A stretch of DNA of 64,000 nucleotides, taken from positions 1 to 64,000 of the IMG/VR virus record IMGVR_UViG_3300046697_000246; one strand, written 5' to 3'. Positions 9,758 through 63,807 of this stretch are shown in pieces. This DNA comes from a virus. Numbering within the stretch: position 1 is the stretch's first letter; the number at the start of each line of letters is the position of its first letter. A program made the translations under genes and the position numbers. Under the pieces are notes generated by a model. The model saw nothing but the letters and a program-made list of their open reading frames with translations, had not been told where the DNA came from and made no database searches.

Positions 9758-9780
9758 ACCACCAACCACTCGGAAAAATT

Positions 9781-30579: not shown

Positions 30580-33500
30580 TCAAAACGTAAGGCGAGGACG
30601 ATGTAACCGGAGCCGTGGCGCATGATGTCTAGCCAACGTCAGTCGCGGCCTTTTGAGCTTGGGTGCACGGTGACTGATTCTGAACGAAGATGGCCGGGCG
30701 CGGCGCAGCTTGGAAATCCGAATCTTTGGAGTGGCGTAGTGCAGGCGCGCGGCGGACGTGCGGCGTCCGAGCGACACCCGGCGGGGTTTGGAACGTCCAC
30801 CGGCGGGGGTATATCGCGCTGCCGTGGCTGCTGGGGCGGCTTTTCCTACACGGGCGGGCACTTGCACCCCAACTGCGGCCAAAGCCTGCGCGTTGGCCTG
30901 CTGGTAAGCGGCCTTGGCCTGCTGTGGCGTGGCTGATGACCCCAATTGGGCGAGATTTGCCTTCAAATACTGCCCGCGAAGCTCGGTGTATTTGTCCAAT
31001 TCAGCCGCCGTCATTGGCCGCATTGTGCCGCCGATGTCGTAACCCTTTGCGCCGTTGATGGATGGAGGACGGAAACCGCTTACAATCATGGCCTGATACG
31101 CCGCCGAATCAGCCTGATTTACGGCAGACTCGCCCGGCGACACGGGGAACGGATACGATCCGGCAGTAATCGCCTGGATGATGCGCTGGGCGTCGTTTGG
31201 CGTCCTGACGGGATCTCCCAAGGAATTGACCAGCCGCGCGCCGGAAGTGGGCAACGGCACGAGGTAATCGAACACAGACGCCATGTTCTTGTCCATCGAG
31301 ACGCCCATCATGCGCGAAACCTCCTGATACATGGGAACGAGCGGCAAAAGCGGGCTTGCTAGTGCCGCCGCAGTTTTCCTCGCGTTTGGCACCCCAAATT
31401 CGGAGTAACCGGACACGGCACCCGCCGCCGTTGAACCGCCTAAAATGGAGTTCCAAACCGCGGCGCCAGCAACAGCCAGCGTGTCGGCAACGTAGTTGTG
31501 CGGGATTGGGCTTCGCGCCAGTCCTTTCGCATCAGCCGCGGCGTCGGCATTTTTCTGCTGTGCCGCCCTTGCATCGGCGAGTCCAGCCGCCGCGCCCGCG
31601 CCGGCCACATAAGGCGCAATCAGGGAGAACGGCCCCACCGTCATGCTGAACGGCGTGAATGTCCCGTCGTCATGCAGCCATTCCACCGTGCCGACCTTGT
31701 GCCCTTCTTCGATGAATCTGTCACGATCCTTTTTGTCGGTCGGGTATTTCAGTTGCACCTTCAACTTGTGATTTAGAATCATCAGGACAACCGTGCTGCC
31801 GACGAGACTGCCGAAAACCGCCATTATCACGTTATGTTTCCGGTCAAGATCGGTTTCATTCGTGGCATGGGTTCCAACACCCTCCTTGCTGACATCACCC
31901 AAAAACAGTTTGTAGGCCGGAGTCAGGCGACCGTGAAAGTTTATCCCATTTCCGATGGCCTGTGAGAAATACGTCGGGATGAACGGCAGATTATGTTTGA
32001 CGGAGAATTGCCGCGCCGACTGCATCATCTTCGACACCGTTCCACCAAGGCTGCCCGCCGCCGGCGGAGACTGCCAAGCCTGGGACATACGCTGGCGCAG
32101 GATGTAAGCCCGCATCGCATCGGACGGCAGCCCCATCAACTCCATCTTCTGATACATCCGTTCCTTGACCAGATAATCAGCGGCCTCGGCCAATTCAGTG
32201 TTGGGAGCCTTCTTCCCGTCCTCTGCAAACGTGCGCCCGGAATCTATCAGCGCGAGCGCCCATTCTTTCTTCATGTCGCCAAAGTTGCCATTCCACGCCA
32301 TCTCGCTTTCCGCGCGAGTCTTTCCGTTCTTCGCCATCTCGACAAAGAACTGATGACGCAGTTCTTGAAACTCGACTTCTTCGCCCTGGAATGCGTCCAG
32401 CGCGCTCACGACGCGGATTGCGTATTTCCACTGGGCGATGAATCCGGTCATGGCCGCGCGTGAATAATCGCCCTTGGCGTAGTATTCCTTGGAAGCGAGT
32501 TCAGCGCGTTCCAGCGCGTTGATGCCCGTCATCATCCGGTCAATGTTTTGCTGTTTTCCGCGACCTGCCATCTGCGCCCGCGCCTGCCGCAGCCCCGGCC
32601 CCATAGATTGAATCCACTGTGATGCCGCTTCGGAATAAGCCTTGGAAACATTTTGATAAATGTCCAGTGGACGCCCCGCCTTTGCATTGGACCCGATTAG
32701 CTCCCACGCCATTGCCGGCGGACGAGTGGCGATCAGGGTCAAATACTGAAATTGCGTGTGCAACAGGAGCCGGACTGGGAATCCCCATTTCGCCAGCAGG
32801 TTTGCCGTTGTGAATTCAATGACGGCCTTGGACGTGTTCCTGCCGGCATCGGTTGGGTTGAACCACGAGAACGGCGGGATGGCCTTGCGCGGATCGGCTG
32901 ACAGCGGCTTGGTGAACTTTGCCCATTCACCAGCAAGTCGGCGGGTCAACTGGCTGATTTCGCTGGTGTTGATGGCTGTTCGTTCGCCATTGCGTCTTTC
33001 AATTTCAGCCGCCTTATCTTTATCCGTGGACATGGTATCGGCCTGAATTCTGGCGCGCTCGGCTGGCGACACGGTTTGCAGGGATTGGATTTTGGAAACC
33101 AGACCGCGCAGCTTTTCGACTTCTTCAGGTGAAGGCACATTCCAGCCGCGCAGCGCGGCAACCCGGCTCAACAACTGCCCGGTATCAGTTCCGCCCGCGT
33201 TGAAAAATTGGCTGATTCGATTCCACAGTTTAGAGTCGCCGGGCGGCATGGTCGCTATCTCGGCTGGAGTCATCGTTCTCACCGCCTCTTTCATTGCGCT
33301 TTCGCGGGCGAGCTTCAGGCGCGCGGTTAGCGCCGAATCCATCACTTTCCACGCGGCGGCGGCTTGTTCTGGCGGAACGCCAAGCTTGCCCACAAGTTGA
33401 CGCATGAATTCGGCCTTCATGCCGGCCTGATCCGCCGTCGGAGTGGCGAGAATCTTTTTGACCAGATCGCTGACTTTCGGGAGCAGGTTGCGAATGGCCG

Positions 33501-36500
33501 ATTTGCCAGCCACGCGGTTGATCATGTCACCGACGAGTCGCGGGTCGGCGAACAGACCGGCATTGACCTTTTGCGCCATCATTTCATCTGGCGTGAGTTT
33601 GTCCGGGTGCTTTGCAGCCTCGAACATCAGGTCGCGGACGCGCGGGCGAACAACGTCGTTGATCTGCTTCAACAACTGCTCGCGGATGACGCCGGAAACC
33701 TGCTTTTTCGTCTCCGCCGATACACCATCCAAATCAATGTTGTCTTGGATGTTTTTCAGATAAGCATCCAGCACGCGCTGAACCTCGGCATCGGGCTGTT
33801 TCGCCAGTTCTGTGATGCTGATGCGTGTATCCACCGGCTTGACCTTGGCCTGTTGGAAGCGCAAGCCTTTGAAATAACGCTCGGCGACGGAGCGCGCCAG
33901 CTTGACGGTGACGGGATCATACCCAGCCCATTCCTCGCGCATCCGTGCCCATTTCTCGAAGTTCGGCAGCTTCAATCCGGCCTCAATCTGCTCCGGTGTC
34001 GGCAGTTCACCCGCTTCGTAGCGGGCGTCAAGCTCGGCTATGGCATCGGCGTTGCCGGAAACCTCATTGCGCGCCGCCTGCTTGCCGGCCTCGATTTCGC
34101 CAGTCTCAACCGCCCGTTGAATTGCGGCTGTGATTTTGTCCTTGTTTGCGTCCGTGACCATCAGGCGCAACTTTTCCAGCGCGGACATCTTCTCTCCGGC
34201 CGGCGGCTCTTGGACGCCGTATTTCTTCAAAGATTCGAGGATGGTGTTCAATTCCTCTTGGAACAGGGCATTTTTCTCCATCTTGCCCGGTGAAGTCTTG
34301 GCCATACTCAACTTCTGCTGGACGGCGCGATACAGCCGGTCGCTCGCCGTCGCTTGATCGGCGGCAATCAGCTTGTTCAGGTCGGCTTCCATGCTCGGAT
34401 TGTCCTTGAGCATCTTCGCAATCTCGGCTTCGGTGAAGAATCCACGGAAATGCTCGACCAGCCGCTTGAAAAACGTCTCGTAAGCGCGCCCACCGAACGC
34501 CAGAGCGTAGGTCTTTTGCAGGAACACCGGGAGATTGGCCGCGACGGTGAGCAAATCCTTCTGGATGCCTTGAACGGAGCGCAACATCCAACCGCGCCAT
34601 GACGATTCACCGGATGAAATACCGATCAACTGGTTCGCCACGTCCTGCGACATGATTTTATACCAGCCGCCGTCGGGAGAGACGTTGTAATTGATGAACC
34701 GGACGAGTGCGGACGAATAGGCCGGATCTCCGCCGGGCGAATTCTGCTGCTGGATGGCCTGCGTCAACTCCTCAATCAGCTTGCTCCCCTCGGCATCGTG
34801 GTTGAACCCGTCCGGGGTGAGCATGGCGACGTTTTCCTCGTGCGGCTCGACGGGGAGCTTCAGGGAATTGATGAAAGCCAGTGCGCGGGCATCGCCTTGG
34901 CGCTTCTGCGCGGGTTGCAACAGGTCTTTGCCGAGCACCTTGTAATCGTTCCCGGCAATCTGCGTCTTGATGCCGTCATCTTGGTTGTCCGGCTCGGATT
35001 CGTCCGGCGGATTGGTCGAATACTTCGGTTCGCCTTGTCCCGTCAATTCCCCTTGAGATTTTGAGTATTCCGCCAAGGCGTCGGCCATTACATTGCGAGC
35101 GTGTTCGACATCCTTGAAGAACCGGCTGGAACCATATTTTCGCTGATTCAGCCAGTCCATGATGCCGTTCATCCACTTCACCATTTCAGAAACAACCTTC
35201 TGGAAAGTGGATGGTGCTTTTTGCGCGAAGCGTTGCCAGAAGGCAGGCTCGGTGATTTGGTCACCAAGTAAATCCGCCAGCGTTTCTTCCTCAATATCCT
35301 CCGGCTTGTAATACTGACCGTATTGTTTTTCCTGTCTCTGGCGCGATGCGGCCAAGTCATCTTTCAAAGCAGACTGAACCTCGGCATACAAATCAGGACG
35401 CTGAACCTTCATCGCGTGAAGCAGTTCATGTGCTGCCGGCCTAATCCACGGGTGAGGATCGTCAGCATTTACGAACAGAACGTCAGGTCGCGAAGGCAGA
35501 AATATCCCGCCACGGCTTTCGCCTTGGATGTTATCCCGGAAGAAAACGATCCTTTTACCAAATAGTTGTGCAAATCCATCAACTCCTCCCTTGAGAAGTT
35601 CCAACAACTGTGGATCGTTTGGTCTGACAGCAACAAGAGAATCTCCTCTGGTGTAGCGCGGGTCTTTTGTGGTAACTGCTCGCCTTGCTGATTCGACAAG
35701 GTTGGCATCAATGCTTGATTCATGGTCATCGTAACGGCCTTTCGGTTCGTTTGGTTCATTGGTTGAAAATTTGGGCGATTCCGGCGGTATCGGCGGTTGC
35801 TGCGGCGCGGCGGGTTGCGCGGCCTGCTGCACCTGATTCAAAATGTCGTTCGCCTCTTGCGGCTTCATCGCGTTGATTTGCGCCTCTGTGTAGCCGCGCG
35901 CCTTCAAATCAACCGTCATCTGTTTTGTGATGAGCAGCGGAACTTTGACACCGCCTTTCGGAATTGGCGGAGCCGATTTCGGCCTTTCTACCGGCTCATC
36001 TCCGTTCCAAATATCCGCCATGTCGCGGGCGTTTTCTTCAGTAGCCCCACCGTGGGCAATTTTTCCAGTCCTTGAATCTGTAACATCCCAAGCGCCAGAT
36101 TTGTTTTGAGACGCAACGAAGCGTTTTCCAAGCGGTGCTTCTTTTTGAGTGACATCAATGCCTGTAAAATCATTCACGGCTTTCACTGATAACGCAATCA
36201 ACTTTTTGAAAACAGCCGCCTCCTTCGGGGTCAATCCTTGCGGAAGAATGCCCTTTGTAATGTAATCGCCAAAGCTCCACCCTTCCGCTTTGAAATTGTC
36301 CATCTTCTGAATGAAGGACTCTGAACTGAAAGTGGCGCGTTCTTCTGGTGTCAATTCTTCCGCAACCAACTCCTCCATCATGCCGGTGACTTTTTCGTTG
36401 TCGCCAGCGTCAGCAGCTTTTTGAAGAAAGTCCTCAACGGCCTTGTTTTCAATCGCGTCCAAGCCGGATTCTTTTTGCAGCCTTGCACCCTCTTGAACGG

Positions 36501-36696
36501 CTTGATAGAGCGTTCTCCCTTTTGGATCGCGCCAAGTCTTGGCATCCAGCCCCAGCAAGCGGATGGAATTCTCAAGGTCTGGTAGGGTGTTATTGTTCCT
36601 GAAAAAAGCCACATAAGAGCGCGGCTCGCCAATGAATCCAACCAGCCGCTTCCAGGTGGCGGCACTTTTATTGGGACAGACAATGTTGACTGGCAT
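30580..36696 (-). CDS. Giant internal virion protein with HExxH motif
   Basis: 2038 aa. A putative zinc peptidase lies near residues 415-480: HELLH at 423-427 with an Glu-rich helix (EEETLADLLGD, about 469-479) that may give the third ligand. The rest is long helical segments with low-complexity linkers; a membrane-spanning stretch is near residue 1620-1645, and another Gly/Ala-rich one follows. The last 75 residues are extremely Arg/Lys-rich. It has its own promoter and heads a minus-strand run facing the tail genes. Its size, helices and basic tail fit an ejected internal virion protein, as in podoviruses (T7 gp16-like in role only). Confidence 0.7.
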   Translation of the reverse strand: MPVNIVCPNKSAATWKRLVGFIGEPRSYVAFFRNNNTLPDLENSIRLLGLDAKTWRDPKGRTLYQAVQEGARLQKESGLDAIENKAVEDFLQKAADAGDNEKVTGMMEELVAEELTPEERATFSSESFIQKMDNFKAEGWSFGDYITKGILPQGLTPKEAAVFKKLIALSVKAVNDFTGIDVTQKEAPLGKRFVASQNKSGAWDVTDSRTGKIAHGGATEENARDMADIWNGDEPVERPKSAPPIPKGGVKVPLLITKQMTVDLKARGYTEAQINAMKPQEANDILNQVQQAAQPAAPQQPPIPPESPKFSTNEPNEPKGRYDDHESSIDANLVESARRAVTTKDPRYTRGDSLVAVRPNDPQLLELLKGGVDGFAQLFGKRIVFFRDNIQGESRGGIFLPSRPDVLFVNADDPHPWIRPAAHELLHAMKVQRPDLYAEVQSALKDDLAASRQRQEKQYGQYYKPEDIEEETLADLLGDQITEPAFWQRFAQKAPSTFQKVVSEMVKWMNGIMDWLNQRKYGSSRFFKDVEHARNVMADALAEYSKSQGELTGQGEPKYSTNPPDESEPDNQDDGIKTQIAGNDYKVLGKDLLQPAQKRQGDARALAFINSLKLPVEPHEENVAMLTPDGFNHDAEGSKLIEELTQAIQQQNSPGGDPAYSSALVRFINYNVSPDGGWYKIMSQDVANQLIGISSGESSWRGWMLRSVQGIQKDLLTVAANLPVFLQKTYALAFGGRAYETFFKRLVEHFRGFFTEAEIAKMLKDNPSMEADLNKLIAADQATASDRLYRAVQQKLSMAKTSPGKMEKNALFQEELNTILESLKKYGVQEPPAGEKMSALEKLRLMVTDANKDKITAAIQRAVETGEIEAGKQAARNEVSGNADAIAELDARYEAGELPTPEQIEAGLKLPNFEKWARMREEWAGYDPVTVKLARSVAERYFKGLRFQQAKVKPVDTRISITELAKQPDAEVQRVLDAYLKNIQDNIDLDGVSAETKKQVSGVIREQLLKQINDVVRPRVRDLMFEAAKHPDKLTPDEMMAQKVNAGLFADPRLVGDMINRVAGKSAIRNLLPKVSDLVKKILATPTADQAGMKAEFMRQLVGKLGVPPEQAAAAWKVMDSALTARLKLARESAMKEAVRTMTPAEIATMPPGDSKLWNRISQFFNAGGTDTGQLLSRVAALRGWNVPSPEEVEKLRGLVSKIQSLQTVSPAERARIQADTMSTDKDKAAEIERRNGERTAINTSEISQLTRRLAGEWAKFTKPLSADPRKAIPPFSWFNPTDAGRNTSKAVIEFTTANLLAKWGFPVRLLLHTQFQYLTLIATRPPAMAWELIGSNAKAGRPLDIYQNVSKAYSEAASQWIQSMGPGLRQARAQMAGRGKQQNIDRMMTGINALERAELASKEYYAKGDYSRAAMTGFIAQWKYAIRVVSALDAFQGEEVEFQELRHQFFVEMAKNGKTRAESEMAWNGNFGDMKKEWALALIDSGRTFAEDGKKAPNTELAEAADYLVKERMYQKMELMGLPSDAMRAYILRQRMSQAWQSPPAAGSLGGTVSKMMQSARQFSVKHNLPFIPTYFSQAIGNGINFHGRLTPAYKLFLGDVSKEGVGTHATNETDLDRKHNVIMAVFGSLVGSTVVLMILNHKLKVQLKYPTDKKDRDRFIEEGHKVGTVEWLHDDGTFTPFSMTVGPFSLIAPYVAGAGAAAGLADARAAQQKNADAAADAKGLARSPIPHNYVADTLAVAGAAVWNSILGGSTAAGAVSGYSEFGVPNARKTAAALASPLLPLVPMYQEVSRMMGVSMDKNMASVFDYLVPLPTSGARLVNSLGDPVRTPNDAQRIIQAITAGSYPFPVSPGESAVNQADSAAYQAMIVSGFRPPSINGAKGYDIGGTMRPMTAAELDKYTELRGQYLKANLAQLGSSATPQQAKAAYQQANAQALAAVGVQVPARVGKAAPAATAARYTPAGGRSKPRRVSLGRRTSAARLHYATPKIRISKLRRARPSSFRISHRAPKLKRPRLTLARHHAPRLRLHRPRLTF

Positions 36697-55559: not shown

Positions 55560-55826
55560 TCACGCCCGCATTAAAACCTGCTGGACTTTCTTGCCGGCCA
55601 AAGTCGGGCTGATTGTCCAGCCGCCATTCGGAAGTTTGTAGGTGCTGAACTGCATCTGTGGTTGGTCTTTTAGTTTTATGGTGACAACGACATCAGGCCG
55701 GATTTTAGGGCGAAACACACTCTCGTTTTCCGGGATCAATTCGGATGCGGCCTTGTGCTGGTAATACGCAGCAATGTTGCCCCGACGAATCGCCGCCTTC
55801 CAAGTGCTTGAATGAAAACGAGACAT
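55560..55826 (-). CDS. Hypothetical protein, 88 aa
   Basis: Basic N-terminus with Arg and Trp, a middle with VVVTIKLKD and a beta-rich end. It is transcribed from upstream, 16 nt after the next gene's stop. Not recognised. Confidence 0.5.
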   Translation of the reverse strand: MSRFHSSTWKAAIRRGNIAAYYQHKAASELIPENESVFRPKIRPDVVVTIKLKDQPQMQFSTYKLPNGGWTISPTLAGKKVQQVLMRA

Positions 55827-55842
55827 AAATGTTAAGTGATTT

Positions 55843-56157
55843 TCACTTCGGCTTATCAGCTATGTTAGCCGTCACTAGCTGGCTCTTTGGCGGGTAGCCT
55901 GATGCCTCGTCACATACACGCTGCATCCATTCCGCCAATGTCAGATTGTGCAGCCGTGCCATTCGCACATACCAGTTCTTGCGCGCCATCACGACGCGCA
56001 GGTGGATGTGTCCTGTGGCAGCTACGCTGTCATTCAGCGGACGACCAGCCCCGCGTCCTAGGTCGGCGGTTTTAGCGCCACGGGGCCGGTCGTGAGATTC
56101 TTCGTGGCATCGGACGCATACGTCCGAGTCTTTGCCGTGTTCGCATTTGTGGGCCAT
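55843..56157 (-). CDS. Ribbon-helix-helix-like protein, paralogue 2
   Basis: 104 aa. Residues 37-90 match the protein at 1835-2050 (VAATGHIHLRV, ARK, WYVRMARL, LAEWM, YPPK). This copy has an N-terminal extension with Cys and His (CEHG ... CVRCHEE), a possible zinc site lacking in the other copy. It starts 1 nt after the stop of the Cys-rich gene. Confidence 0.6.
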   Translation of the reverse strand: MAHKCEHGKDSDVCVRCHEESHDRPRGAKTADLGRGAGRPLNDSVAATGHIHLRVVMARKNWYVRMARLHNLTLAEWMQRVCDEASGYPPKSQLVTANIADKPK

Positions 56158-56158
56158 A

Positions 56159-56404
56159 TTATTTCAGCAGCTTGGCGACTTCGGAGGCGATGCGGCTATT
56201 GTGCGGCTCGCCGATATTGTCAGCCGTCCACCATCCACGGCGCGAGGCTCGGCAGTCGCCCGGCGCGCAGCCGTATCCGCACTTGCATTGCGGATCGGAA
56301 TGATTGACGTGGGTTGCTCCGGTAGCAGCCTCGATCTTGCTGACGATTTTGCGGGACAGGAATCCGTCGTGGCATCCGAAGATATATTCGCTTGAGGTTG
56401 TCAT
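56159..56404 (-). CDS. Cys-rich protein behind the repeated leader
   Basis: 81 aa, with Cys at CKCGYGC and C, plus His residues, a possible metal site. The ATG at 56404 is preceded by the hairpin leader shared with the gene at 3306. Together with the paralogous gene that follows, this mirrors the layout at 2-3.3 kb. Not recognised. Confidence 0.5.
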   Translation of the reverse strand: MTTSSEYIFGCHDGFLSRKIVSKIEAATGATHVNHSDPQCKCGYGCAPGDCRASRRGWWTADNIGEPHNSRIASEVAKLLK

Positions 56405-56512
56405 ATTTTTGTCTGTGTTGTTTGTTCACTTCCCGGATTCGCCGGGGCGATTTGTTGGTTTCTTCCAACACAGATAGTTTCGCATTTCATCTTCATTTTG
56501 TCAACACATTAT
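56405..56512 (-). promoter_or_regulatory. Promoter-leader, copy 2
   Basis: Hairpin CCCGG-loop-CCGGG (56432-56446), then AAGTGAAC and AACACAGACAAAA before the ATG at 56404. TTGACA (minus, 56504-56499) lies in a 14-bp block identical to 3398-3411. A -10 box at proper distance is not clear. The remaining sequence to 56579 is AT-rich with no gene. Confidence 0.5.
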
Positions 56513-56579
56513 TATCAGATTTTTACGATTTATTTTGCCCTTGAAAACATTGACGATTTTAGTGTTTTTCGCCCGTGAC

Positions 56580-56669
56580 GGCTAACAAATCGGTGCAGCC
56601 AATGCCGGTTGGCGCTCTCAGCCAAGTCCGGGCGTCACTGGCCCGGCATGGCTGACCTCTGCGTTGGGT
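56580..56669 (-). repeat. attC site A
   Basis: Boxes GGCTAAC (56580) and GTTGGGT (56663-56669). Arms CAGCCAATGCCGG and CCGGCATGGCTG pair with one unpaired A. It is the last site of the array, bordering the phage leader region at 56404-56512. Confidence 0.8.
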
Positions 56670-56820
56670 GCAGAAAAGTTTCATGCGGATTCTCCATGCG
56701 CTTGCGGGCGTTTGCCGCTGCGCCGAGTTTGCCAAGTCTTGAGGCGTTTCCTTTGTGAAACCTGCCATGTCTAGCGGTGATTATTATATCAGCCTGTTGG
56801 GCGGCACAGCGCACGCGCAC
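56635..56820 (-). CDS. Possible cassette gene, 61 aa
   Basis: A short frame that ends inside site A, as cassette genes here do. Its start lies in a hairpin near 56820. Residues about 40-55 (ASRLGKLGAAANARKR) resemble the basic RLGG pattern of the protein at 575-730. A different frame (56559-56768) is also open, so the choice is uncertain. Confidence 0.3.
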   Translation of the reverse strand: MRVRCAAQQADIIITARHGRFHKGNASRLGKLGAAANARKRMENPHETFLHPTQRSAMPGQ

Positions 56821-56828
56821 TGTGCCGC
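56796..56828. other. Half attC (A') with strong hairpin
   Basis: GTTGGGC (56796-56802) is the exact partner of GCCCAAC at site B, as expected for the end of the SPFH cassette. GCGGCACAG (56801-56809) and CTGTGCCGC (56820-56828) form a 9-bp hairpin next to it. Inner arms and left box of a full attC are not recognisable. Confidence 0.45.
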
Positions 56829-56835
56829 GTGAGTT

Positions 56836-57243
56836 TTATTTGTTTCGGGTAGCTTCAAGGATTGGCAGGTTGGCTTCGGTCGGCACATAGACCACGGTTT
56901 TATCCGTGCCTTGCGCGGCCACGTCGTTGATCCAGAGGTAGCGGAGATACGCTTCGTTGTTTTTCAGCGATTCGCCGATTATCTGGTTTGCTTTTGCGAC
57001 ACCACCAGCGCGGATTACTTCCGCTTGCGCCAGCAGTTCCGCCGATTCCATTTTGGCCTTCGCTTCGGCCACGGCCACTTCTTTTGCGGACTGAGCGTGT
57101 GCCAGCATTGCCTGGCCGAGTGCGCGGCTCGCATAGATGTTGTATTGAGGATACGCCCACATTGCGCCGAAGATTACGACGCCGATTGCCACGATTGATG
57201 CGACGATCCAGCCCGCGTAGTTTGGTTCACCATTTTCTTTCAT
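56836..57243 (-). CDS. SPFH/band-7-like membrane protein (cassette)
   Basis: 135 aa. One membrane segment near the N-terminus (WIVASIVAIGVVIFGAMW, about residues 12-29), then a helical, Ala/Glu-rich part (50-90) and an end with ENNEAYLRYLWINDVAA-like and VVYVPTEANLPIL segments that match the C-terminal part of SPFH (prohibitin/HflK-type) proteins. The usual SPFH core is missing, so it is a short version. ATG at 57243 is preferred over 57282, which lies in site B. Confidence 0.6.
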   Translation of the reverse strand: MKENGEPNYAGWIVASIVAIGVVIFGAMWAYPQYNIYASRALGQAMLAHAQSAKEVAVAEAKAKMESAELLAQAEVIRAGGVAKANQIIGESLKNNEAYLRYLWINDVAAQGTDKTVVYVPTEANLPILEATRNK

Positions 57244-57267
57244 TGTTGTGTGTCTTTCGATTGTGCC

Positions 57268-57376
57268 GCCCAACAACCGCATGGAGCCAATGCGGGTTGG
57301 ACGCGCAGTTTATTTCGTTGAGGCTCCAGATTGTTTCACGGTTTCAGTCCCGCATGGCTCATGCGGAGCGTTAGAC
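57268..57376 (-). repeat. attC site B
   Basis: Boxes GCCCAAC (57268-57274) and GTTAGAC (57370-57376). Arms CCGCATGGAGCCAATGCGGG and CCCGCATGGCTCATGCGG pair perfectly except for two extra bases on one strand. The boxes differ from each other but fit those of the neighbouring cassettes. Confidence 0.9.
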
Positions 57377-57516
57377 AGCCGGGCGGAGCGTTTTGCTTTA
57401 CGGCGAGCTTTTTGAAGTGCGGCCTGTTGCGCTGGCGTGATTATCCGCGTGCGCTTACGTTTCTTCGGGCCTTGCGCGCCCCACCGCTTGAAATCTTCTG
57501 ACGTGTAGGTTTTCAA
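57310..57516 (-). CDS. Small very basic protein (cassette)
   Basis: 68 aa with a long run of Lys/Arg (KKRKRTRIIT and ARRKAKRS), ending in codons from site B. It overlaps the HNH gene by ATGA, so the two form a small operon in one cassette. Possibly a nucleic-acid-binding partner. Confidence 0.5.
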   Translation of the reverse strand: MKTYTSEDFKRWGAQGPKKRKRTRIITPAQQAALQKARRKAKRSARLSNAPHEPCGTETVKQSGASTK

Positions 57517-57836
57517 AATTGGTGCCGGTCTTTATGGGTTTCATCCCAATGTTCTTTTGCGTGGCAGTTACCGCAAAGTAATTCGCATTTAGAAATCTCA
57601 ATCTTAACCTTTTCTAAAGACTTTGTTTGCGCTAAAAGCCTGTTCACTCTATCCACTTTCGTTGATGGGTCAATATGGTGGAACTGCAAACAGGCCGGAT
57701 GAGATTCACCGCACCTTTTACAGCCTGACAATTTAACACCCAACACATACGCCCTTAATTTAGCTCTGTGAGCGGACTGCCGCTTACGCTCACTCTCTTT
57801 GTAGAGATGTAAATTTTCACGCCCGATGTAACTCAT
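57513..57836 (-). CDS. HNH endonuclease (cassette)
   Basis: 107 aa. CKRCGESHPACLQFHHIDP near residue 39 and CELLCGNCHAKEH near 84 are a classic HNH site with two CxxC zinc pairs; the HH and the later N/H supply catalytic residues. Such enzymes nick or cut double-stranded DNA. Coupled by ATGA to the next gene. Confidence 0.8.
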   Translation of the reverse strand: MSYIGRENLHLYKESERKRQSAHRAKLRAYVLGVKLSGCKRCGESHPACLQFHHIDPSTKVDRVNRLLAQTKSLEKVKIEISKCELLCGNCHAKEHWDETHKDRHQF

Positions 57837-57840
57837 AAAT

Positions 57841-57945
57841 TTATTGCGGGTCTTTCCCCGCTGTCATCACCTTCGGACGATCAATCCAATCCACGGCCAC
57901 GGTGCGGGCCTGTCCCAGCTTCGGTTGCTGCTCCACTTCCGGCAT
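57841..57945 (-). CDS. Short frame, 34 aa, possibly a gene remnant
   Basis: ATG at 57945 to a stop at 57841, 4 nt before the HNH start. The same reading goes on upstream without a start codon to about 58000, so it may be the 3' end of a broken gene. The rest of the interval to 58233 has no convincing gene but contains GTTAGAC at 58047-58053 (see site C). Confidence 0.3.
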   Translation of the reverse strand: MPEVEQQPKLGQARTVAVDWIDRPKVMTAGKDPQ

Positions 57946-58046
57946 TGTTGATGCCAGTTCCTCACGCGGGGCTATGAGTCGGAACCGCCGGAGGCTTTCG
58001 CCAAATTATCTCCGGACTTTCACGCCGTCCGGCTGGCGGCTCTTAC

Positions 58047-58053
58047 GTTAGAC
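58047..58053 (-). other. Half attC (C)
   Basis: GTTAGAC matches the box of site D's cassette, but no RYYYAAC partner and no paired arms are visible upstream; CCGGCTGGCGGCTC next to it is only partly paired with GAACCGCCGG. Possibly a decayed site. Confidence 0.35.
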
Positions 58054-58233
58054 AGATTCCGCGCTCTGCCGTGCTTTCGTGCGGCTCAGTTTATTTTATA
58101 CTCACTTCACTGGAGCCGACTCCGTTTTTCACAAGTCGCACTGCCGGTTTCCCGCGTGCAAGATTATTTATATCATATCCCCGTTACGAATCAAACTCTT
58201 TTTTGATTTATTTTCGTGAATCGCAAACCGGCT

Positions 58234-58330
58234 GTCTAACAACGCGCTGGAACCAACGCCCATTATCGCTGTCAGTCCGCTACGCGGGTCATTCCTCAAG
58301 CTGGGCGTGGTTCAGCTTGAGGCGTTAGAC
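58234..58330 (-). repeat. attC site D
   Basis: Boxes GTCTAAC (58234-58240) and GTTAGAC (58324-58330). Arms GCTGGAACCAACGCCC and GGGCGTGGTTCAGC pair with two extra bases on one strand. Standard cassette-end layout; the preceding gene stops inside it. Confidence 0.9.
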
Positions 58331-58590
58331 GGCTCGGCGAGCGCCTCGCGCGCTATGTCGCCAAGTCCGAAACTGCGGATGCTTTGCGATTCTTCGGACT
58401 CGATGATTTCTTCGAGTGCTTTTTTGTAGCGCTTCACATTCTCACCGAGCGCAAAAATTTGTCTGGCATCGGCTCGAATCAGCCTGTCAGATTCAAGCAG
58501 TTCGCCGATGAGTTGCAGTTTTGACACCTTTTTGTATCGTGCGGCGACTGTAATTTGTTCGCCGAATGTTTGTTCGCTCATAGAGTTCAT
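58312..58590 (-). CDS. Helical protein (cassette), 92 aa
   Basis: Almost wholly helical and Glu/Ala/Arg-rich, without Cys. The C-terminal residues (AEPSNASS) come from site D. Its ATG overlaps the stop of the previous gene (ATGA), so two genes share this cassette. Not recognised. Confidence 0.55.
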   Translation of the reverse strand: MNSMSEQTFGEQITVAARYKKVSKLQLIGELLESDRLIRADARQIFALGENVKRYKKALEEIIESEESQSIRSFGLGDIAREALAEPSNASS

Positions 58591-58727
58591 TTGTTCCTTT
58601 TCACGAGGCGTTCAGCCTCGAACTTGGTCAGCCCTATTGCCAGCTTGGTCACTTTTCCGAACTTGGTCACTTTCACCACCATCCAAGCGTTTCCTACCGT
58701 CGAGCATGGTTTTATTTGAAGTTTCAT
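58587..58727 (-). CDS. Small basic protein (cassette), 46 aa
   Basis: Basic, beta-rich protein with WMVVKVTKFGKVTKLA in the middle. The ATG at 58727 lies just outside site E; an upstream ATG at 58811 falls inside site E. Coupled by ATGA to the helical gene after it. Confidence 0.45.
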   Translation of the reverse strand: MKLQIKPCSTVGNAWMVVKVTKFGKVTKLAIGLTKFEAERLVKRNK

Positions 58728-58741
58728 ATTTTCAATTCGCC

Positions 58742-58847
58742 GTCTAACAACCGCATGAAGCCAATGCGGTTGGGCGTCTCTGGTTTGACGGGAAGTCTCT
58801 GGTGATTTCATGGTTTGGTGTCCGCGTCGCTTATGCGGACGTTAGAC
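58742..58847 (-). repeat. attC site E
   Basis: Boxes GTCTAAC (58742-58748) and GTTAGAC (58841-58847). Arms CCGCATGAAGCCAATGCGG and CCGCGTCGCTTATGCGG pair with the same two unpaired bases. It follows the gene that stops at 58858. Confidence 0.9.
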
Positions 58848-58857
58848 GGCTTCAGTA

Positions 58858-59232
58858 TCACCAGTCTATGAGTATCGTGTGTTCACCGGCTTCAAGCAGC
58901 CCTTTGGCATGGAGGTCATTTGCCACCATTTGCAGGTCAGGGTAGAAGTTTCTATCCCACCAAAGTCCCAGGCTGTAGTCCGTTCGCCCATCGGCCAGCG
59001 CTTTTTTTGGATCTCTTGCGAGCCACGCCGCGAAGCTCACGCCCTTTTCTTCATGGTTCACTTTTTCCGGCACAGTTGTTCGCTCGTGGTCACTTGCTTC
59101 GGATGGCACGTCTATTACCACCGTTCCGCGACTCATGCAGCCATCCTGTTGCTGTAGATTGTAGGGGCGTCCGTAGGTTTTCACCACGAGCGCATCCCAT
59201 TCCGACACTTCGATCACTTGTTTTGTTTTCAT
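58858..59232 (-). CDS. Hypothetical protein (cassette), 124 aa
   Basis: An ordered, mixed protein starting KTKQVIEVSEWDALVV, with Trp-rich GLWWDRNFYPDLQMV near residue 88. It has its own ATG outside site F and its stop lies 11 nt before site E's box. Not recognised; similar small proteins occur in phage accessory regions. Confidence 0.55.
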   Translation of the reverse strand: MKTKQVIEVSEWDALVVKTYGRPYNLQQQDGCMSRGTVVIDVPSEASDHERTTVPEKVNHEEKGVSFAAWLARDPKKALADGRTDYSLGLWWDRNFYPDLQMVANDLHAKGLLEAGEHTILIDW

Positions 59233-59253
59233 ATTTGTTTATCGCTGTTCGCC

Positions 59254-59352
59254 GTCTAACAACTCACTCCAGCCAACCGGCGTTACGACTTGCCGTCCGC
59301 CTTCGCGGGCGACGCGCCTCGGTCGCCGGTGGCTGAGTTCGAGGCGTTCTCC
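59254..59352 (-). repeat. attC site F
   Basis: Boxes GTCTAAC (59254-59260) and GTTCTCC (59346-59352). Arms CTCCAGCCAACCGGCG and CGCCGGTGGCTGAG pair with two extra bases. The boxes do not match each other: GTTCTCC pairs with GGAGAAC of site G, the other end of that cassette. Confidence 0.85.
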
Positions 59353-59492
59353 GGCACGAGTCCTTTGTATTTATGGAGTTGGTAGCGGAGGTGTTGGATT
59401 AGCGCGGCGCAGTTTTTCCCATCATCACCAAAGTCTCGTAAGGCGGCTTCGGCTTGCCACATTTGAGCGGTTGCCTGTGCGATGTGAGACAT
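59283..59492 (-). CDS. Helical protein (cassette), 69 aa
   Basis: Helical, Ala/Gln-rich N-terminal part, then a polar end coded by site F. The ATG at 59492 lies 23 nt inside the cassette; the open frame goes on to an ATG at 59576 inside the loop of site G. Not recognised. Confidence 0.5.
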   Translation of the reverse strand: MSHIAQATAQMWQAEAALRDFGDDGKNCAALIQHLRYQLHKYKGLVPENASNSATGDRGASPAKADGKS

Positions 59493-59508
59493 GACGTGTT
59501 CGCGTGCC

Positions 59509-59636
59509 GGAGAACAAGTCGCTGCACCCGCAACTGCCGCTGCCCGTTTCCGATTCTTGGCTTTTATTTTGGTCATAAAGTTTCAGTGCCGCCCACGGTC
59601 GCGCTCGGCGGCAGTGGGGTGAGCTTCACGTTCGGC
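59509..59636 (-). repeat. attC site G
   Basis: Boxes GGAGAAC (59509-59515) and GTTCGGC (59630-59636). Arms GCTGCACCCGCAACTGCCGC and GCGGCAGTGGGGTGAGC pair with two extra bases. The right box matches the left box of site H across the nucleotidyltransferase cassette. Confidence 0.85.
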
Positions 59637-59640
59637 GTCT

Positions 59641-60288
59641 TCATTTTCGCGCCTCCGGTTTATCGTAGGGCAGTCCGACGAAAGCAAAGACGGCTTCCTC
59701 GGATTCCATCGCTCGCGCTTCGTCACCCCGCGAGAATCCCGCACCGTATGGATTCCATTTCCATCCGCGTTCCTGCGCGGACATGCAGATGCGCGTGTTG
59801 CTGTCCGCCGGGCCGGTTCGGCAGACGAGATAGTTGTGCCAGTTCTCCGCCGTCGCCGCGAAGAAGTCCACGGGCAGCCCGGTGGCACGGTGGCGCATCA
59901 GTTTATTTTTCGCGCCATACATTTCCGATCCGTTCACATTCTTGCGCCGTTCCAGCACGCCGGATTTTTCGAGCGCGGCGATTACTTCGTCCGCGAGATT
60001 TACCGTGATGCTGGCGAACATATCGGCAGGGTCTTGGCGCTCTTCGGTTTTTCCGATGTAGAGGATTTCAGCATCGCCCACGGTGGTCTTTCGCCGGCGC
60101 AGTGAGCCAGCGACGACGAGGCGCTCACAGACTGGCTTGAGCGCCGCGCAGAGTTCCGCAGCCACCTTCATTCCAACGGCGTTGTCGAAGCGAGGTTTCT
60201 GTCCAGACGCCGAACACATCGCTGCACCCGCAATGACTGCTGCGGTCACAGTTTTCGGCGATGGTGGCGTTTTTGGCGCAGCAGTCAT
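59641..60288 (-). CDS. PolX-like nucleotidyltransferase (cassette)
   Basis: About 215 aa. VAGSLRRRKTTVGDAEILYI (near residue 59) is the GS-RR...GD-x-(D/E) site of the Pol beta fold, and LPVDFFAA near 142 supplies the third acidic residue. The C-terminus (ESEEAVFAFVGLPYDKPEAR) matches the end of PolX-family enzymes, which add nucleotides in DNA repair or synthesis. It may fill or extend DNA ends. An internal ATG (GMKVAAE) could also be used; the extra N-terminus is coded by site H. Confidence 0.75.
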   Translation of the reverse strand: MTAAPKTPPSPKTVTAAVIAGAAMCSASGQKPRFDNAVGMKVAAELCAALKPVCERLVVAGSLRRRKTTVGDAEILYIGKTEERQDPADMFASITVNLADEVIAALEKSGVLERRKNVNGSEMYGAKNKLMRHRATGLPVDFFAATAENWHNYLVCRTGPADSNTRICMSAQERGWKWNPYGAGFSRGDEARAMESEEAVFAFVGLPYDKPEARK

Positions 60289-60309
60289 GGGGTGAGCTTT
60301 GCGTTCGGC
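60209..60309 (-). repeat. attC site H
   Basis: Boxes GCCGAAC (60209-60215) and GTTCGGC (60303-60309). Arms GCTGCACCCGCAATGACTGC and GCAGTCATGGGGTGAGC pair with two extra bases; about 10 bp of arm are perfectly paired. Confidence 0.9.
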
Positions 60310-60527
60310 TGCTTTATTGCTTGGGCATTCCAGTTGCGGCGGGCGGTGTGGCGAGTCCACGCCATTTTTCCGCTCCGACCGCATTTGGGACATAGCAGCC
60401 AGATCAGTCCGCCGCCACCGTCCCATATCGGGAGCGTTCCACAGTTACACGGCAGCAGCCGAACAAGCCTGCCGGAGCCAACCGTGGTTGGCCGTCTCTT
60501 TTTATTCGCTACGGATTTCTTTTTCAT
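60285..60527 (-). CDS. Lar-like zinc protein (cassette)
   Basis: 80 aa. LLPCNCGTLPIW near residue 27 and LLCPKCGRSG near 47, then ARRNWNAQAI, fit the restriction-alleviation protein Lar (two CxxC pairs and a final W-N motif), which counters host type I restriction. The cassette itself has no start codon before this domain, so translation must begin at the ATG 60527 in the loop of site I. The stop lies in site H. Confidence 0.65.
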   Translation of the reverse strand: MKKKSVANKKRRPTTVGSGRLVRLLPCNCGTLPIWDGGGGLIWLLCPKCGRSGKMAWTRHTARRNWNAQAIKQPNAKLTP

Positions 60528-60568
60528 AAAGTCTCTAGTCCACGGCGGCGCATCAGGCACCGTTCGGC
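60458..60568 (-). repeat. attC site I
   Basis: Boxes GCCGAAC (60458-60464) and GTTCGGC (60562-60568). Arms GCCTGCCGGAGCCAACCGTGG and CCACGGCGGCGCATCAGGC pair with mismatches and two extra bases. The loop contains the ATG used by the Lar-like gene. Confidence 0.85.
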
Positions 60569-61095
60569 TTCTGATACACGATCCAGTGTGTTCGGGTGTT
60601 TCCGACCCGCTGACCAAATAGCGGCTTCTGGTCGGTGAGCGACAAAACGGTTGTCAGCTTCACCCGATGTTCATTCCATTTGAAAACGAGCGTTCCCAGA
60701 GGACACAGGACGCGGAAGCATTCACGGAAGCCGGCCGAGATTTCGTTGCGCCAGTCGAGCGGAAGGCTTCCGTATTTCTTTATCGTCCTTCCGTTCGGCC
60801 CGCACCAGGTATGCGGCGGGTCGAATACGACGAGCGCGAAAGTGCAGTCAGGGAATGGCAGTTCCTTGAAGTTTGCCAGCACGTCGGGATTTACGACGAT
60901 GCTTGCCGGTTTCGGGCCGGTGTGGTCTATAAGCGTTTCGCGGCGCTTATCCACGAACAGAGCGCGAGGGTCTGATTTATCAAACCAGAACATCCGACTC
61001 CCGCAGCACGCATCCAGCACAGAAGCCGAACAAGTCCTTGGAGGCAAAGACGCCACGCCTTGCGCTCCATCATTGATTTCAATTTGAGTATTCAT
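60553..61095 (-). CDS. SAM-dependent methyltransferase (cassette)
   Basis: Up to 180 aa. VLDACCGSRMFWFDK is motif I of a class I methyltransferase (SAM binding) and LVVFDPPHTW near residue 92 is motif IV (DPP(H/Y)), the usual sign of an N6-adenine or C4-cytosine DNA methylase or a related base methylase. A GTG at 61020, right after the recombination point, would give a 156-aa form; the longer start lies in site J. It could protect phage DNA from restriction. Confidence 0.75.
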   Translation of the reverse strand: MNTQIEINDGAQGVASLPPRTCSASVLDACCGSRMFWFDKSDPRALFVDKRRETLIDHTGPKPASIVVNPDVLANFKELPFPDCTFALVVFDPPHTWCGPNGRTIKKYGSLPLDWRNEISAGFRECFRVLCPLGTLVFKWNEHRVKLTTVLSLTDQKPLFGQRVGNTRTHWIVYQKPNGA

Positions 61096-61146
61096 TTTAC
61101 GTTCGAGGCGGCGCTGTCGGCGTCTTGCCTCAAGTCTGCGTTCGGC
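61025..61146 (-). repeat. attC site J
   Basis: Boxes GCCGAAC (61025-61031) and GTTCGGC (61140-61146). Arms AGTCCTTGGAGGCAAAGACG and CGTCTTGCCTCAAGTCT pair almost fully with two extra bases. Confidence 0.9.
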
Positions 61147-61532
61147 GAAATGAATTGCACCGGCAGCCCCATCTCGTTTGCGATGGCGATTTCACCCGCA
61201 ACGCCTTTTGATTCCTTCCAGCCGTCGAGTGTCAGCACGATCATCGCGCAGCACGCGGCGAGGATGGCGCGGTCATACGCCTGCCAGTATTCCCACCCCA
61301 GAGGCAGATCACCGGCCAGCGCAATTGGATGCGTGTGGCTGATAGGCGAGTAGATGTGCATTCCCTTCCGCATCAGTTCCGCCGCCGCCGCGTTGACGGC
61401 TCGGAAGCGTCCTTCCCGCACCGATGCGTCTGGGTGCGAGTATGGGGTTGCGAGATATACGAGCGTTTTCGCCGAACAAGCGGATGCAGGCAACAGCCGC
61501 TGGCCATCTGGTTTTTCAAGTGTTGATTCCAT
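61092..61532 (-). CDS. DUF1937 protein, nucleoside-transferase-like (cassette)
   Basis: 146 aa. LVYLATPYSHPDASVREGRF near residue 23 and ILAACCAMIVLTLDGWKES near 98 match DUF1937, a nucleoside-2-deoxyribosyltransferase-like family common in phages, probably acting on nucleotides. The conserved start of the family (LVYLATPYSHP) comes immediately after the recombination point and has no start codon of its own; the ATG at 61532 lies in the loop of site K. Stop in site J. Confidence 0.75.
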   Translation of the reverse strand: MESTLEKPDGQRLLPASACSAKTLVYLATPYSHPDASVREGRFRAVNAAAAELMRKGMHIYSPISHTHPIALAGDLPLGWEYWQAYDRAILAACCAMIVLTLDGWKESKGVAGEIAIANEMGLPVQFISPNADLRQDADSAASNVK

Positions 61533-61583
61533 ATTCAAAGTCATTTGGTCTTCGGCGGCTGTGCCTGATCCGCAGCGTTCGGC
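61471..61583 (-). repeat. attC site K
   Basis: Boxes GCCGAAC (61471-61477) and GTTCGGC (61577-61583). Arms GCGGATGCAGGCAACAGCCGC and GCGGCTGTGCCTGATCCGC pair perfectly except for two extra bases on one strand. Confidence 0.95.
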
Positions 61584-61590
61584 GGCATTT

Positions 61591-61839
61591 TCATTCGATG
61601 CAAACAATACGCTCGGAGCCGCATTCAGGACACACGAGTTTCCCGCCGGCCACGCATGGCATTCGTTCCTCTCCGCAGTTATGGCAGCCGTGATATTTTC
61701 CGCAGGCTTGTTCTACGCTCAACGTTGCCGCCGAACAAACCGTTGCAGATAATTCGCTCTGCGCCTTCTGTTCTCGCTGCTCTCGTCGGCGAGCAACGCG
61801 CGCATACACGAGGATGGATGTTGGGTCAAAGTCGCTCAT
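61591..61839 (-). CDS. Zinc-ribbon protein (cassette), 82 aa
   Basis: The C-terminal half has Cys pairs (CHNC, C, CPEC, C) of a zinc ribbon. The N-terminal half up to residue 35 is coded by site L. A TTG at about residue 40 would start the cassette's own gene. The stop lies 8 nt before site K's box. Function unknown; zinc ribbons often bind nucleic acid. Confidence 0.5.
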   Translation of the reverse strand: MSDFDPTSILVYARVARRREQREQKAQSELSATVCSAATLSVEQACGKYHGCHNCGEERMPCVAGGKLVCPECGSERIVCIE

Positions 61840-61860
61840 ATCTGAACTTTCTCGTTAGCC
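61730..61860 (-). repeat. attC site L
   Basis: Boxes GCCGAAC (61730-61736) and GTTAGCC (61854-61860). The arms are less well paired (around CAGATAATTCGC and ATATCTG). GTTAGCC matches GGCTAAC of site M across the cassette. Confidence 0.7.
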
Positions 61861-62144
61861 ATCGGTTCGACATCCACGCCTTTCATTCCAAGAAACGCTT
61901 TTCCGTGGATTGGGCATACAAACATATCGAAGTGGTGCTTGTGACTTCGGACGCGCCACTCAGCCTTGTTCTCGCAGAGTTCGCGGTCAGCTATGACCAT
62001 ACACGTCCGCTGGCTAACCCGGCGCTGCTGCGAATCCGTGCCTCGCTTTACGGACAACGGCATCATCACCATTTCGCGGCACCATCCGGCACAGTAGCCG
62101 TCATCCGTCACCAGTTCTTTTTTGCATTTTGGACACGTTCTCAT
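61836..62144 (-). CDS. Zinc-ribbon protein (cassette), 102 aa
   Basis: CPKCKKE near residue 4 and C, C near 18-22 form a zinc ribbon; a second His/Cys group follows near 75 (FVCPIHG). The first half is coded in the long loop of site M and the second in the cassette itself, where an ATG at 62000 gives a 54-aa form. It may be a fused chain made by recombination. Stop in site L. Confidence 0.5.
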   Translation of the reverse strand: MRTCPKCKKELVTDDGYCAGWCREMVMMPLSVKRGTDSQQRRVSQRTCMVIADRELCENKAEWRVRSHKHHFDMFVCPIHGKAFLGMKGVDVEPMANEKVQI

Positions 62145-62210
62145 ATTCGTTATTTTCCTTTGCGCTCCACATCCGCCGCCGGCACGGATCGCAGAGCTTG
62201 GTCGTTAAGC
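62012..62210 (-). repeat. attC site M (long)
   Basis: Boxes GGCTAAC (62012-62018) and GTTAAGC (62204-62210). Arms GCTGCTGCGAATCCGTGCC and GGCACGGATCGCAGAGC pair nearly fully. At 199 bp it is longer than most such sites because the loop holds a coding segment. Confidence 0.75.
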
Positions 62211-62483
62211 CGCTAGCTTCAGTTTGTGGCAGTTTTTTATTTCCTCACAACATTGCGGACAAGTTATCGCTTGCGGTGGGACATTCTCCCAAGCGGATTG
62301 ATCTTGCTCATTTCCGGTCGCAGTTCCATCGAACGCTTGCCCGCAGATGGTAAATTCCGAATTGAGAGCACTTATCCGGTGGACAAATCCATCACCTGTT
62401 TTTCCGAAGCCCGTATTCTTTCGGGGCCGCGGCTTAACCCGTCGCTGCTGCGGACACGGCTTGGCGTCTTGGGATTTGCTCAT
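62205..62483 (-). CDS. Zinc-ribbon protein (cassette), 92 aa
   Basis: FTICGQAFDG near residue 45 and TCPQCCEEI near 74 give a zinc site typical of small phage proteins. No start codon lies between the recombination point and the conserved part, so the ATG at 62483, in the loop of site N, is the only ATG. The stop lies in the box of site M. Function unknown. Confidence 0.55.
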   Translation of the reverse strand: MSKSQDAKPCPQQRRVKPRPRKNTGFGKTGDGFVHRISALNSEFTICGQAFDGTATGNEQDQSAWENVPPQAITCPQCCEEIKNCHKLKLAA

Positions 62484-62540
62484 AAGGTTTCTGGTTTGCC
62501 TGCGTCCCCATGTGCCGGGTCGCAGAGCGCGTCGTTCGGC
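62432..62540 (-). repeat. attC site N (first of array)
   Basis: Boxes GCTTAAC (62432-62438) and GTTCGGC (62534-62540). The arms GCTGCTGCGGACACGGC and GTGCCGGGTCGCAGAGC pair with gaps. It lies directly at the stop of the phage operon gene at 62541. Confidence 0.75.
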
Positions 62541-62795
62541 CTATTCAGTTTTTTCGAGCCATTTCGCATATTTTTGCGCGGCTTCCTTGACGGCTTCTTC
62601 GAGTGTTTCTTTGCTTTTGGATTCACAGTAGCAGTCACCATGTATTGTAACACAGTAGCCACGACCAGCCCCCATTAACTTGAACATCTTGACCTCTTGC
62701 CCATCATCTAGTGCAGGCGCCAACGACTCTTGGCGATTTCCGTTCGATGTTTTTTTCTTCATTGGTTCTTTTGATTGTGATTTTTTAATTTTCAT
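62541..62795 (-). CDS. Small phage-operon protein, 84 aa
   Basis: A Lys-rich start, then a core with MFKLMGAGRGYCVTIHGDC and a helical end (TLEEAVKEAAQKYAKWLE), a pattern near HicB-like or small phage proteins. Its start overlaps the DUF5131 gene by 11 nt, as in the phage operons, but its stop is followed directly by attC site N. Confidence 0.5.
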   Translation of the reverse strand: MKIKKSQSKEPMKKKTSNGNRQESLAPALDDGQEVKMFKLMGAGRGYCVTIHGDCYCESKSKETLEEAVKEAAQKYAKWLEKTE

Positions 62796-63807
62796 GCGGA
62801 TCGTTAAAATCTTTTGGCCATTCCCTGATTTGAAGATGTTTCGGAAACTTGCTCATGTCGGTTTCAACTTTGCCGTCCATTGAAACTTGTTTTACCCACA
62901 CCGGAATTCCAGCCTCCAAGCCTTGCTCGACCAGCGACTCAATCCATTCGATCTTGCACTCGCGACGGCGCGGGCCGGACTCGCAGCCGATGATGAGCCA
63001 GTCAATCCCAACACCAAGTGCCCAACCGTCTTGAAACTTGGTCGAACCGGTTTTTACTTTCATCAAATCTACCGGCCCCAGCAGCGGTTCGAGCGAAAGA
63101 CCCCGGCACGCCGCCGGAATCTTGAGCGCATCCCGGACGCGCTTGTCGGCCATCGGCTGATTTTCAACCGAAGTCAGAAGGGTGATATTTTTGTGCGGAT
63201 GGTCGTAGGTAATCCATTCATTCAACCAACCAAGCAATCCACAAATCCATTCGTCGCGTCCCCCGGCATTGTGTTTTTCAGCGAGATAATTCACCGTCGC
63301 CGACATTCGCGGAAAGAAATTCTCCGGCCTCTTGGTGCAGTTGATCAGCGTCACGTCCGGGCATCGGCGTTGAACGTCAAGGAAATGAGCGAAGGTTTCA
63401 ATCGGCCACTTTAAGTCCAAGAAGTCGCTGTTTGAATCGCAGAAGATTTTTCTGATGTGGAAATTCATGCGGCACAAATTGTCGCCATCACCACGGCAAA
63501 AATGGTTCGTAGGCTCTTTGAACGCCTCGCCGCAGTCGTCGCAAATCAGCGGTCGCCGGTTCATCGCCAGCATGGACTTCTCGAAGCCCTTGACCGGCAC
63601 GCGGGCGCCATGCGGCCCCCACGTCTCAACACGTTCCCCGCGCATTCCCGGCCATCTGCCAGATCGCAGCACGCGGGCGGGAGTGTCCATCGCGGCAAAG
63701 CAATTTTTGCAGCCTTCCGAAATGCGGGAACAACCGATTACGCAATTTGAGGATGAGTCCGCCCAGGAAATTGAAGTTTTAGTTGCCATTTGTAGTGATG
63801 ACCTCAT
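62785..63807 (-). CDS. DUF5131 phage protein (Gp37/Gp68 type)
   Basis: 340 aa. ISWADSSSNCVIGCSRISEG and CKNCFAA near residue 30 are the hallmark of DUF5131 (phage Gp37/Gp68), with Cys groups that suggest a metal or cluster site. Further motifs: SLEPLLGPVDL near 243 and WLIIGCESG near 275. The family is widespread in phages and its reaction is unknown. Its ATG overlaps the previous stop (ATGA); a start at 63789 is also possible. Confidence 0.85.
   Translation of the reverse strand: MRSSLQMATKTSISWADSSSNCVIGCSRISEGCKNCFAAMDTPARVLRSGRWPGMRGERVETWGPHGARVPVKGFEKSMLAMNRRPLICDDCGEAFKEPTNHFCRGDGDNLCRMNFHIRKIFCDSNSDFLDLKWPIETFAHFLDVQRRCPDVTLINCTKRPENFFPRMSATVNYLAEKHNAGGRDEWICGLLGWLNEWITYDHPHKNITLLTSVENQPMADKRVRDALKIPAACRGLSLEPLLGPVDLMKVKTGSTKFQDGWALGVGIDWLIIGCESGPRRRECKIEWIESLVEQGLEAGIPVWVKQVSMDGKVETDMSKFPKHLQIREWPKDFNDPHEN

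Follow-up and report, generated by a model that had tools for sequence, protein, structure and literature searches.

We analyzed a 64,000-nucleotide window of viral DNA (the whole stretch studied here, being the first 64 kb of the 73,290-bp IMG/VR virus record IMGVR_UViG_3300046697_000246), in which an earlier note had described an integron-type array of attC cassettes at 56580-62540. Phages are known to carry pieces of integrons, which are familiar as devices of bacteria. The region is probably an integrase-less array, resembling the clusters of attC sites lacking integron integrases (CALINs), that belongs to an integron lineage carried by phages, has inverted cassettes, and is recombined in trans. 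What stands of the earlier description is an integron-type attC array in a phage, supported by the architecture of the sites, the end repeats of the gene units, matches to a model made from known attC sites, a cassette with edges at the boxes that a distant phage has in common, and IntI-encoding phages that carry the same type of array.

We scanned strictly for hairpins running from AAC to GTT with bulges in the 5′ arm, with 300 dinucleotide shuffles as the null. The scan returned 10 hairpins in 55864-62540 (shuffles: mean 0.23, maximum 3); the remaining 55.5 kb of the window gave one hairpin on the + strand and three on the - strand, with scores of ~27 or less, compared with up to 47.8 in the array. 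Together with one site with less clean bulges and two weak ones (60462-60564 and 61734-61856), these 10 make up the 13 attC-type sites that had been claimed, which lie at 56584-62538 (AAC to GTT) and all have the same polarity. Their architecture matches that of attC sites in control integrons: an imperfect hairpin, R″/R′ boxes (AAC..GTT), L boxes, and extrahelical bases on one arm. The two unpaired bases seen before on one arm are indeed present, usually as a G and an A on the + strand with the spacing of class 1 attC sites. Outer boxes of the form RYYYAAC and GTTRRRY had been reported throughout; GTTRRRY is found in about half of the sites, with GTTCGGC or GTTCTCC elsewhere.

A home-made covariance model, built solely from 21 class 1, Vibrio, and Shewanella attC sites, was run on the 64-kb window. 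Its two top hits both fall in the array on the + strand (56580-56669, E = 0.008, and 58234-58330, E = 0.011). With filters off, scores at the same sites were lower than with default settings, apparently through long loops that remained unbridged. IntI recombines the folded bottom strand of an integron attC site. When the - strands of ten sites were folded as single-stranded DNA, the outcome was mixed: several beat the shuffles by a wide margin (z = -3.2 to -6.5 for 58234, 58742, 60209, 61025, and 61471), and two were no better than shuffles.

Each of the 13 gene units has its own terminal inverted repeat of 8-13 bp, with GTT at the start and AAC at the end. Among 93 viral cassettes, 50.5% had an end match of at least 8 bp, whereas ends paired across different cassettes did so in 3.7% of cases and the two boxes within a hairpin in 7.5%. 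Matched ends occur likewise in class 1, Vibrio, and Shewanella cassettes of published phages, and are thus a general mark of integron cassettes, which the window bears. We dropped them as a novelty because the class 1 control has them too.

The small genes had been placed on the strand expected for cassettes. They do share a single strand, yet normal cassettes use the other one: in control integrons the gene-coding strand has the bulges in its 5′ arm, whereas the window has its genes on the complementary strand. Orientation called by codon usage gave 43 inverted, 2 same-strand, and 13 uncalled matched-end cassettes in the phage group, and 18 same-strand, 0 inverted, and 2 uncalled cassettes in the controls (inverted: 43/45 vs. 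0/18 callable cassettes, Fisher P = 7e-14). Selection of the bottom strand is considered to determine which way genes face with respect to the promoter (PMC11023631). The cassette genes form part of the phage's own minus-strand operon, reading toward the position of intI, and in 27 of the 58 matched-end cassettes a frame starting with ATG extends from inside the upstream hairpin into the gene (a descriptive share, without shuffle control).

No integrase had been seen in the region, and this holds for the whole 73,290-bp record, in which no tyrosine recombinase (PF00589 or TIGR02249) was found; the window is therefore a CALIN and not an integron. Related IntI proteins are, nevertheless, encoded on 14 viral contigs, with phage markers that include TerL and portal (G026), TerL (L126), Bet (L128), and DnaB (L127). 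The six full-length phage IntI proteins examined have the IntI-specific insert (LPGxLAxKY..FPS) and form a single clade (support 100/100). TIGR02249 was their best NCBIfam family (224-275 bits, one of the six reaching the cut-off of 265; XerD control 121), and the one compared with PDB matched Vibrio IntI best (2a3v, E = 6e-48). A genome scan with phage IntI returned two distant proteins (26-28%), with patterns that reach close relatives only and do not establish absence from bacteria.

Thirteen of the 14 contigs have attC sites upstream of intI, and the fourteenth offers only 141 bp of upstream sequence; the top strand of these sites is opposite to intI in 33 cases and not in 2. Between the first cassette and intI, just before the intI start codon, 13 loci share a conserved element (consensus AACAGTGTATTCAACAAACCCGGTTC). 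A weight matrix made from 12 of the 13 scored 24.4 or more at the element loci, and the next best score in 3.9 Mb was 18.7. We regard this element as the candidate attI. A candidate attI scoring 18.7 is on L108 near 6810 (- strand), before an ATG, and that contig has this hairpin type.

The corresponding place was also inspected in the window and in a distant relative without IntI, the 71,632-bp record G001, to which contig L019 belongs. G001 carries a clear copy of the element, AACAGTGTATTAGGACAAAC, at its array edge. The window edge, where the first cassette GTT falls at 55864 and an 88-aa gene starts 38 bp away, resembles the phage candidate attI only weakly. No match was found when G001 and the L003 contig were searched with PF00589 and TIGR02249, and no intI remnant was found at the array edges of the window and G001. 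Small genes stand beside the array edge in both records, where other phages have intI (window 55560-55826, 88 aa; G001 64869-65150, 93 aa), and their C-terminal ends are similar. Relatives of the 88-aa gene occur in L074 and L104; in the latter, the relative adjoins the frame of a tyrosine recombinase (9500-10600, 375 aa), which we rejected as an IntI (TIGR02249 E = 2e-5 only).

The phages with intI bear on whether the genes are truly inverted. One could suppose that the genes have kept their orientation, that the strand recombined by this lineage's integrase is the other one, and that the bulges belong to the opposite arm, leaving the usual attC site after each gene. At the sequence level an inverted gene is the same as a mirrored attC, because the end repeats are symmetric, and this counts for the mirrored arrangement, as does the lack of a stable link between hairpins and the gene on their R″ side (see below). 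The array alone fits both. However, in phages with IntI, intI and the candidate attI are found at the array end that the bulge-defined attC top strand points away from, as in the control integrons, so that the polarity rule seems to be conserved and only the genes turned. The geometry of intI, attI, and attC thus favors inverted genes, and we regard the mirrored arrangement as unlikely.

The same contigs weigh against a reading without any integrase, in which the phage operon uses the hairpins to terminate transcription or for regulation, and ordinary homologous recombination spreads them. Hairpins between codirectional genes, near-identical hairpins in many phages with differing neighbors, and the missing integrase of the window phage would all suit terminators. 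We nevertheless reject this reading, to which we give very little credence, because the bulge pattern and its spacing are those of attC, the matched GTT-to-AAC end repeats are not needed by terminators, and IntI is encoded beside arrays of the same type; open frames that often begin in the loops and enter the gene would also be odd for terminators.

As we picture the phage-borne integron lineage, a cassette would combine an attC-type hairpin with a small gene unit that extends from G/TT to AAC. The gene-coding (-) strand of the hairpin, folded as a single strand by an IntI-type recombinase, would be recombined at G/TT, by which cassettes could be excised, reinserted, and exchanged between phages. 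In the other array-bearing phages the recombinase would be the phage-encoded IntI, with the candidate attI just before its start codon. For the window phage we infer both IntI action on these sites and its source: with intI absent, IntI must act in trans, from a coinfecting phage or the host. In contrast to bacterial integrons, the genes run against the attC top strand, and translation of many of them seems to begin within a hairpin loop.

Exchange between phages is visible in the comparison with G001, which has 127-bp terminal repeats and is thus probably complete. It is related to the window phage only distantly (TerL 33% aa identity, most other core proteins 29-55%) and carries a same-type array of 20 sites. 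The two phages have in common the methyltransferase unit at 60562-61031 (95.5% aa, 89% nt identity); the match spans GTT to AAC, and the flanking hairpins on both sides differ. A near-identical unit in distant phages, with its edges at GTT..AAC, implies that cassettes have moved between phages. Conversely, a G001 site 88.5% identical to the site at 59258-59348 sits between other genes. G001 also shares with contig 3300048821_000195 an 879-bp block (98% identity) whose edges lie at CTAAC and GTTAG, and a DNA pattern derived from these hairpins matches 40 stretches of viral contigs.

This spread tells against the idea that a chromosomal or mobile bacterial integron array was captured once by a phage and is now a passive remnant; capture by a phage had been one of the two origins suggested earlier. 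Such capture would fit the lack of intI in the window phage, and captured bacterial integrons do exist in published phages (PMC9892861). But inverted genes mark the phage group, while the bacterial-type controls lack them; many viral contigs have cassettes and near-identical hairpins in common; and phages possess an IntI clade and a candidate attI of their own, all of which make a simple capture quite improbable.

Several observations weigh against a phage-borne integron array as proposed here. Neither the window phage nor G001 encodes an integrase; several R boxes deviate from GTTRRRY; the small home-made model of known attC sites reaches E <1 at only 2 of the 13 sites; and 2 of the 10 folded sites (59509 and 62432) are no better than shuffles. 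Moreover, a hairpin and the gene at its R″ side often do not go together, an observation that simple cassette exchange leaves unexplained: among 42 cross-phage hairpin pairs (at least 85% identity, near-identical contigs excluded), neither flank was common in 40 and one flank in 2. A dull cause, gene conversion between hairpins, is possible. It is also conceivable, although we hold this only tentatively, that gene unit (GTT..AAC) and hairpin (AAC..GTT) are separately exchangeable in the phages' own integron system, with recombination at both boxes; hairpins bearing start codons would then be shuffled against gene bodies.

The array, with gene units on the - strand and attC-type sites whose top strand is the + strand, begins earlier than the reported 56580. 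Its left edge (55827-55866, +), at the place of attI and intI in other phages, holds the weak candidate attI AACATAGCTGATAAGCC (- strand). Gene unit 1 (55864-56586; open reading frames, ORFs, 55843-56157 and 56159-56404) has the 12-bp end repeat GTTAGCCGTCAC and is followed by a site at 56584-56665 (scan score 33.4; known-attC model 23.5 bits). Unit 2 (56796-57274; gene 56836-57282; 13-bp end repeat) lies 133 bp from the preceding GTT box and is followed by a site at 57272-57372 (score 35.8, z = -2.7). Unit 3 (57370-58240; ORFs 57310-57516 and 57513-57836; 13 bp) precedes the site at 58238-58326 (score 34.9, z = -3.2; known-attC model 22.7 bits), and unit 4 (58324-58748; 58312-58590 and 58587-58727; 10 bp) that at 58746-58843 (score 24.3, z = -3.3). 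Unit 5 (58841-59260; 58858-59232; 10 bp) is followed by the site with the G001 counterpart (59258-59348, score 33.4). Unit 6 (59346-59515) has the 13-bp end repeat GTTCTCCGGCACG and an ORF (59283-59576) that starts in the loop of the next hairpin, at 59513-59632 (score 38.1, folding no better than shuffles).

Unit 7 (59630-60215; 11-bp end repeat) encodes a DNA polymerase beta-like protein (59641-60219, PF14791) with relatives in L003 (83%), L125 (52%), and G026 (49%), and is followed by the top-scoring site of the array (60213-60305, score 47.8, z = -5.3). Unit 8 (60303-60464; 11 bp) has no clear gene, and the weak site after it (60462-60564, score 20.7) is ~90% identical to a site of L095. 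Unit 9 (60562-61031; 12 bp) encodes the DNA methyltransferase (ORF 60553-61095; type II/orphan by PADLOC), whose start codon is in the loop of the site at 61029-61142 (score 38.7, z = -3.5). Unit 10 (61140-61477; 11 bp) encodes a DUF1937 protein (PF09152, E = 2e-22) within ORF 61092-61607, before the site at 61475-61579 (score 40.4, z = -6.5). Units 11 (61577-61736; ORF 61591-61839; 11 bp) and 12 (61854-62018; within ORF 61836-62144; 8 bp) are followed by a weak site at 61734-61856 (score 18.4) and one at 62016-62206 (score 39.1), respectively. In unit 13 (62204-62438; 10 bp), the ORF (62205-62483) again starts in the loop of the next hairpin, the site at the right edge of the array (62436-62538, score 32.3, folding no better than shuffles). 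We infer an accessory role for the cassette genes, for example restriction evasion in the case of the methyltransferase.

The ends of the record overlap (70650-72412 is 100% identical to 1-1763), so that the genome is probably complete at ~70.6 kb. Among its genes are those for a virion structural protein and a large terminase (PHROG 2, E = 7e-15). When the terminase and one structural gene served as queries, one near-identical contig, one 70% relative, and nothing further were found, and an Rfam search gave no match. The end copy of the terminal overlap contains an insertion (record 72413-73290, L001 18413-19290) with a transposase-like ORF (72482-73144) that is 34% identical to an ORF in L128; this is either an insertion sequence or an assembly chimera. 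It is followed by 92 bp that match window 55886-55977 at 99% identity. A 483-bp direct repeat (99% identity) lies at record 69476-69958 and 70640-71121, one copy within the terminal overlap. Immediately beyond the array is a DUF5131 gene (window 62785-63807) that matched two PADLOC candidate defense models (E ~1e-22), and a 2038-aa ORF (window 30580-36696), without a PHROG match, shows 41% identity to a G001 protein across 1064 residues.

If the phage IntI clade, its own attI, and inverted cassettes are confirmed, viruses themselves use single-strand cassette shuffling, plausibly to trade accessory or counter-defense genes such as methyltransferases during coinfection. Separate movement of genes and hairpins touches the question of how attC sites come to be joined to genes; gene units and hairpins that are separately exchangeable would be a working example of new genes gaining attC. 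Phage attC clusters have already been published (Qi et al. 2023), and the phage IntI clade, the candidate attI, and the inverted cassettes appear to be new. The literature search, confined to a set of open-access papers (subscription papers and preprints lie outside it), turned up nothing closer on phage IntI clades or inverted arrays, and the novelty is provisional.

The closest known systems share parts of this organization. The paper of Qi et al. (2023, PMC9892861), in the part drawn on here, lists 17 CALINs from phages, attC arrays without integrase like that of the window, and shows recombination by IntI1 of five of six phage sites tested. The IntI-bearing phages they treat there carry bacterial-type integrons (Vibrio, class 1, Shewanella), with genes on the normal strand in our scans, and a phage IntI clade, a phage attI, or an inverted array is not described in that part. 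Phage TJE1 was dropped as a control, having no convincing array by our scan. Virus Rctr41k (KX853513, L132 4680-10097) is likewise a phage contig with an IntI (TIGR02249, 383 bits) and at least six attC-type sites, but its cassette genes are on the attC top strand and its IntI tends toward IntI1 (87/90), outside the phage clade. Its integrase is annotated xerD, and the deposited record has no integron label. The Vibrio sedentary chromosomal integron (fragment in MK672802) resembles the window in its many short gene units and similar hairpins of ~120 bp, and differs in its top-strand genes, AT-rich hairpins of one family, and the presence of intIA. Class 1 cassettes (phage P1, MH445380) have the same hairpin architecture, two-bulge spacing, and matched ends of 8-12 bp, but their genes are on the attC top strand, their hairpin loops are short, and intI1 is present.

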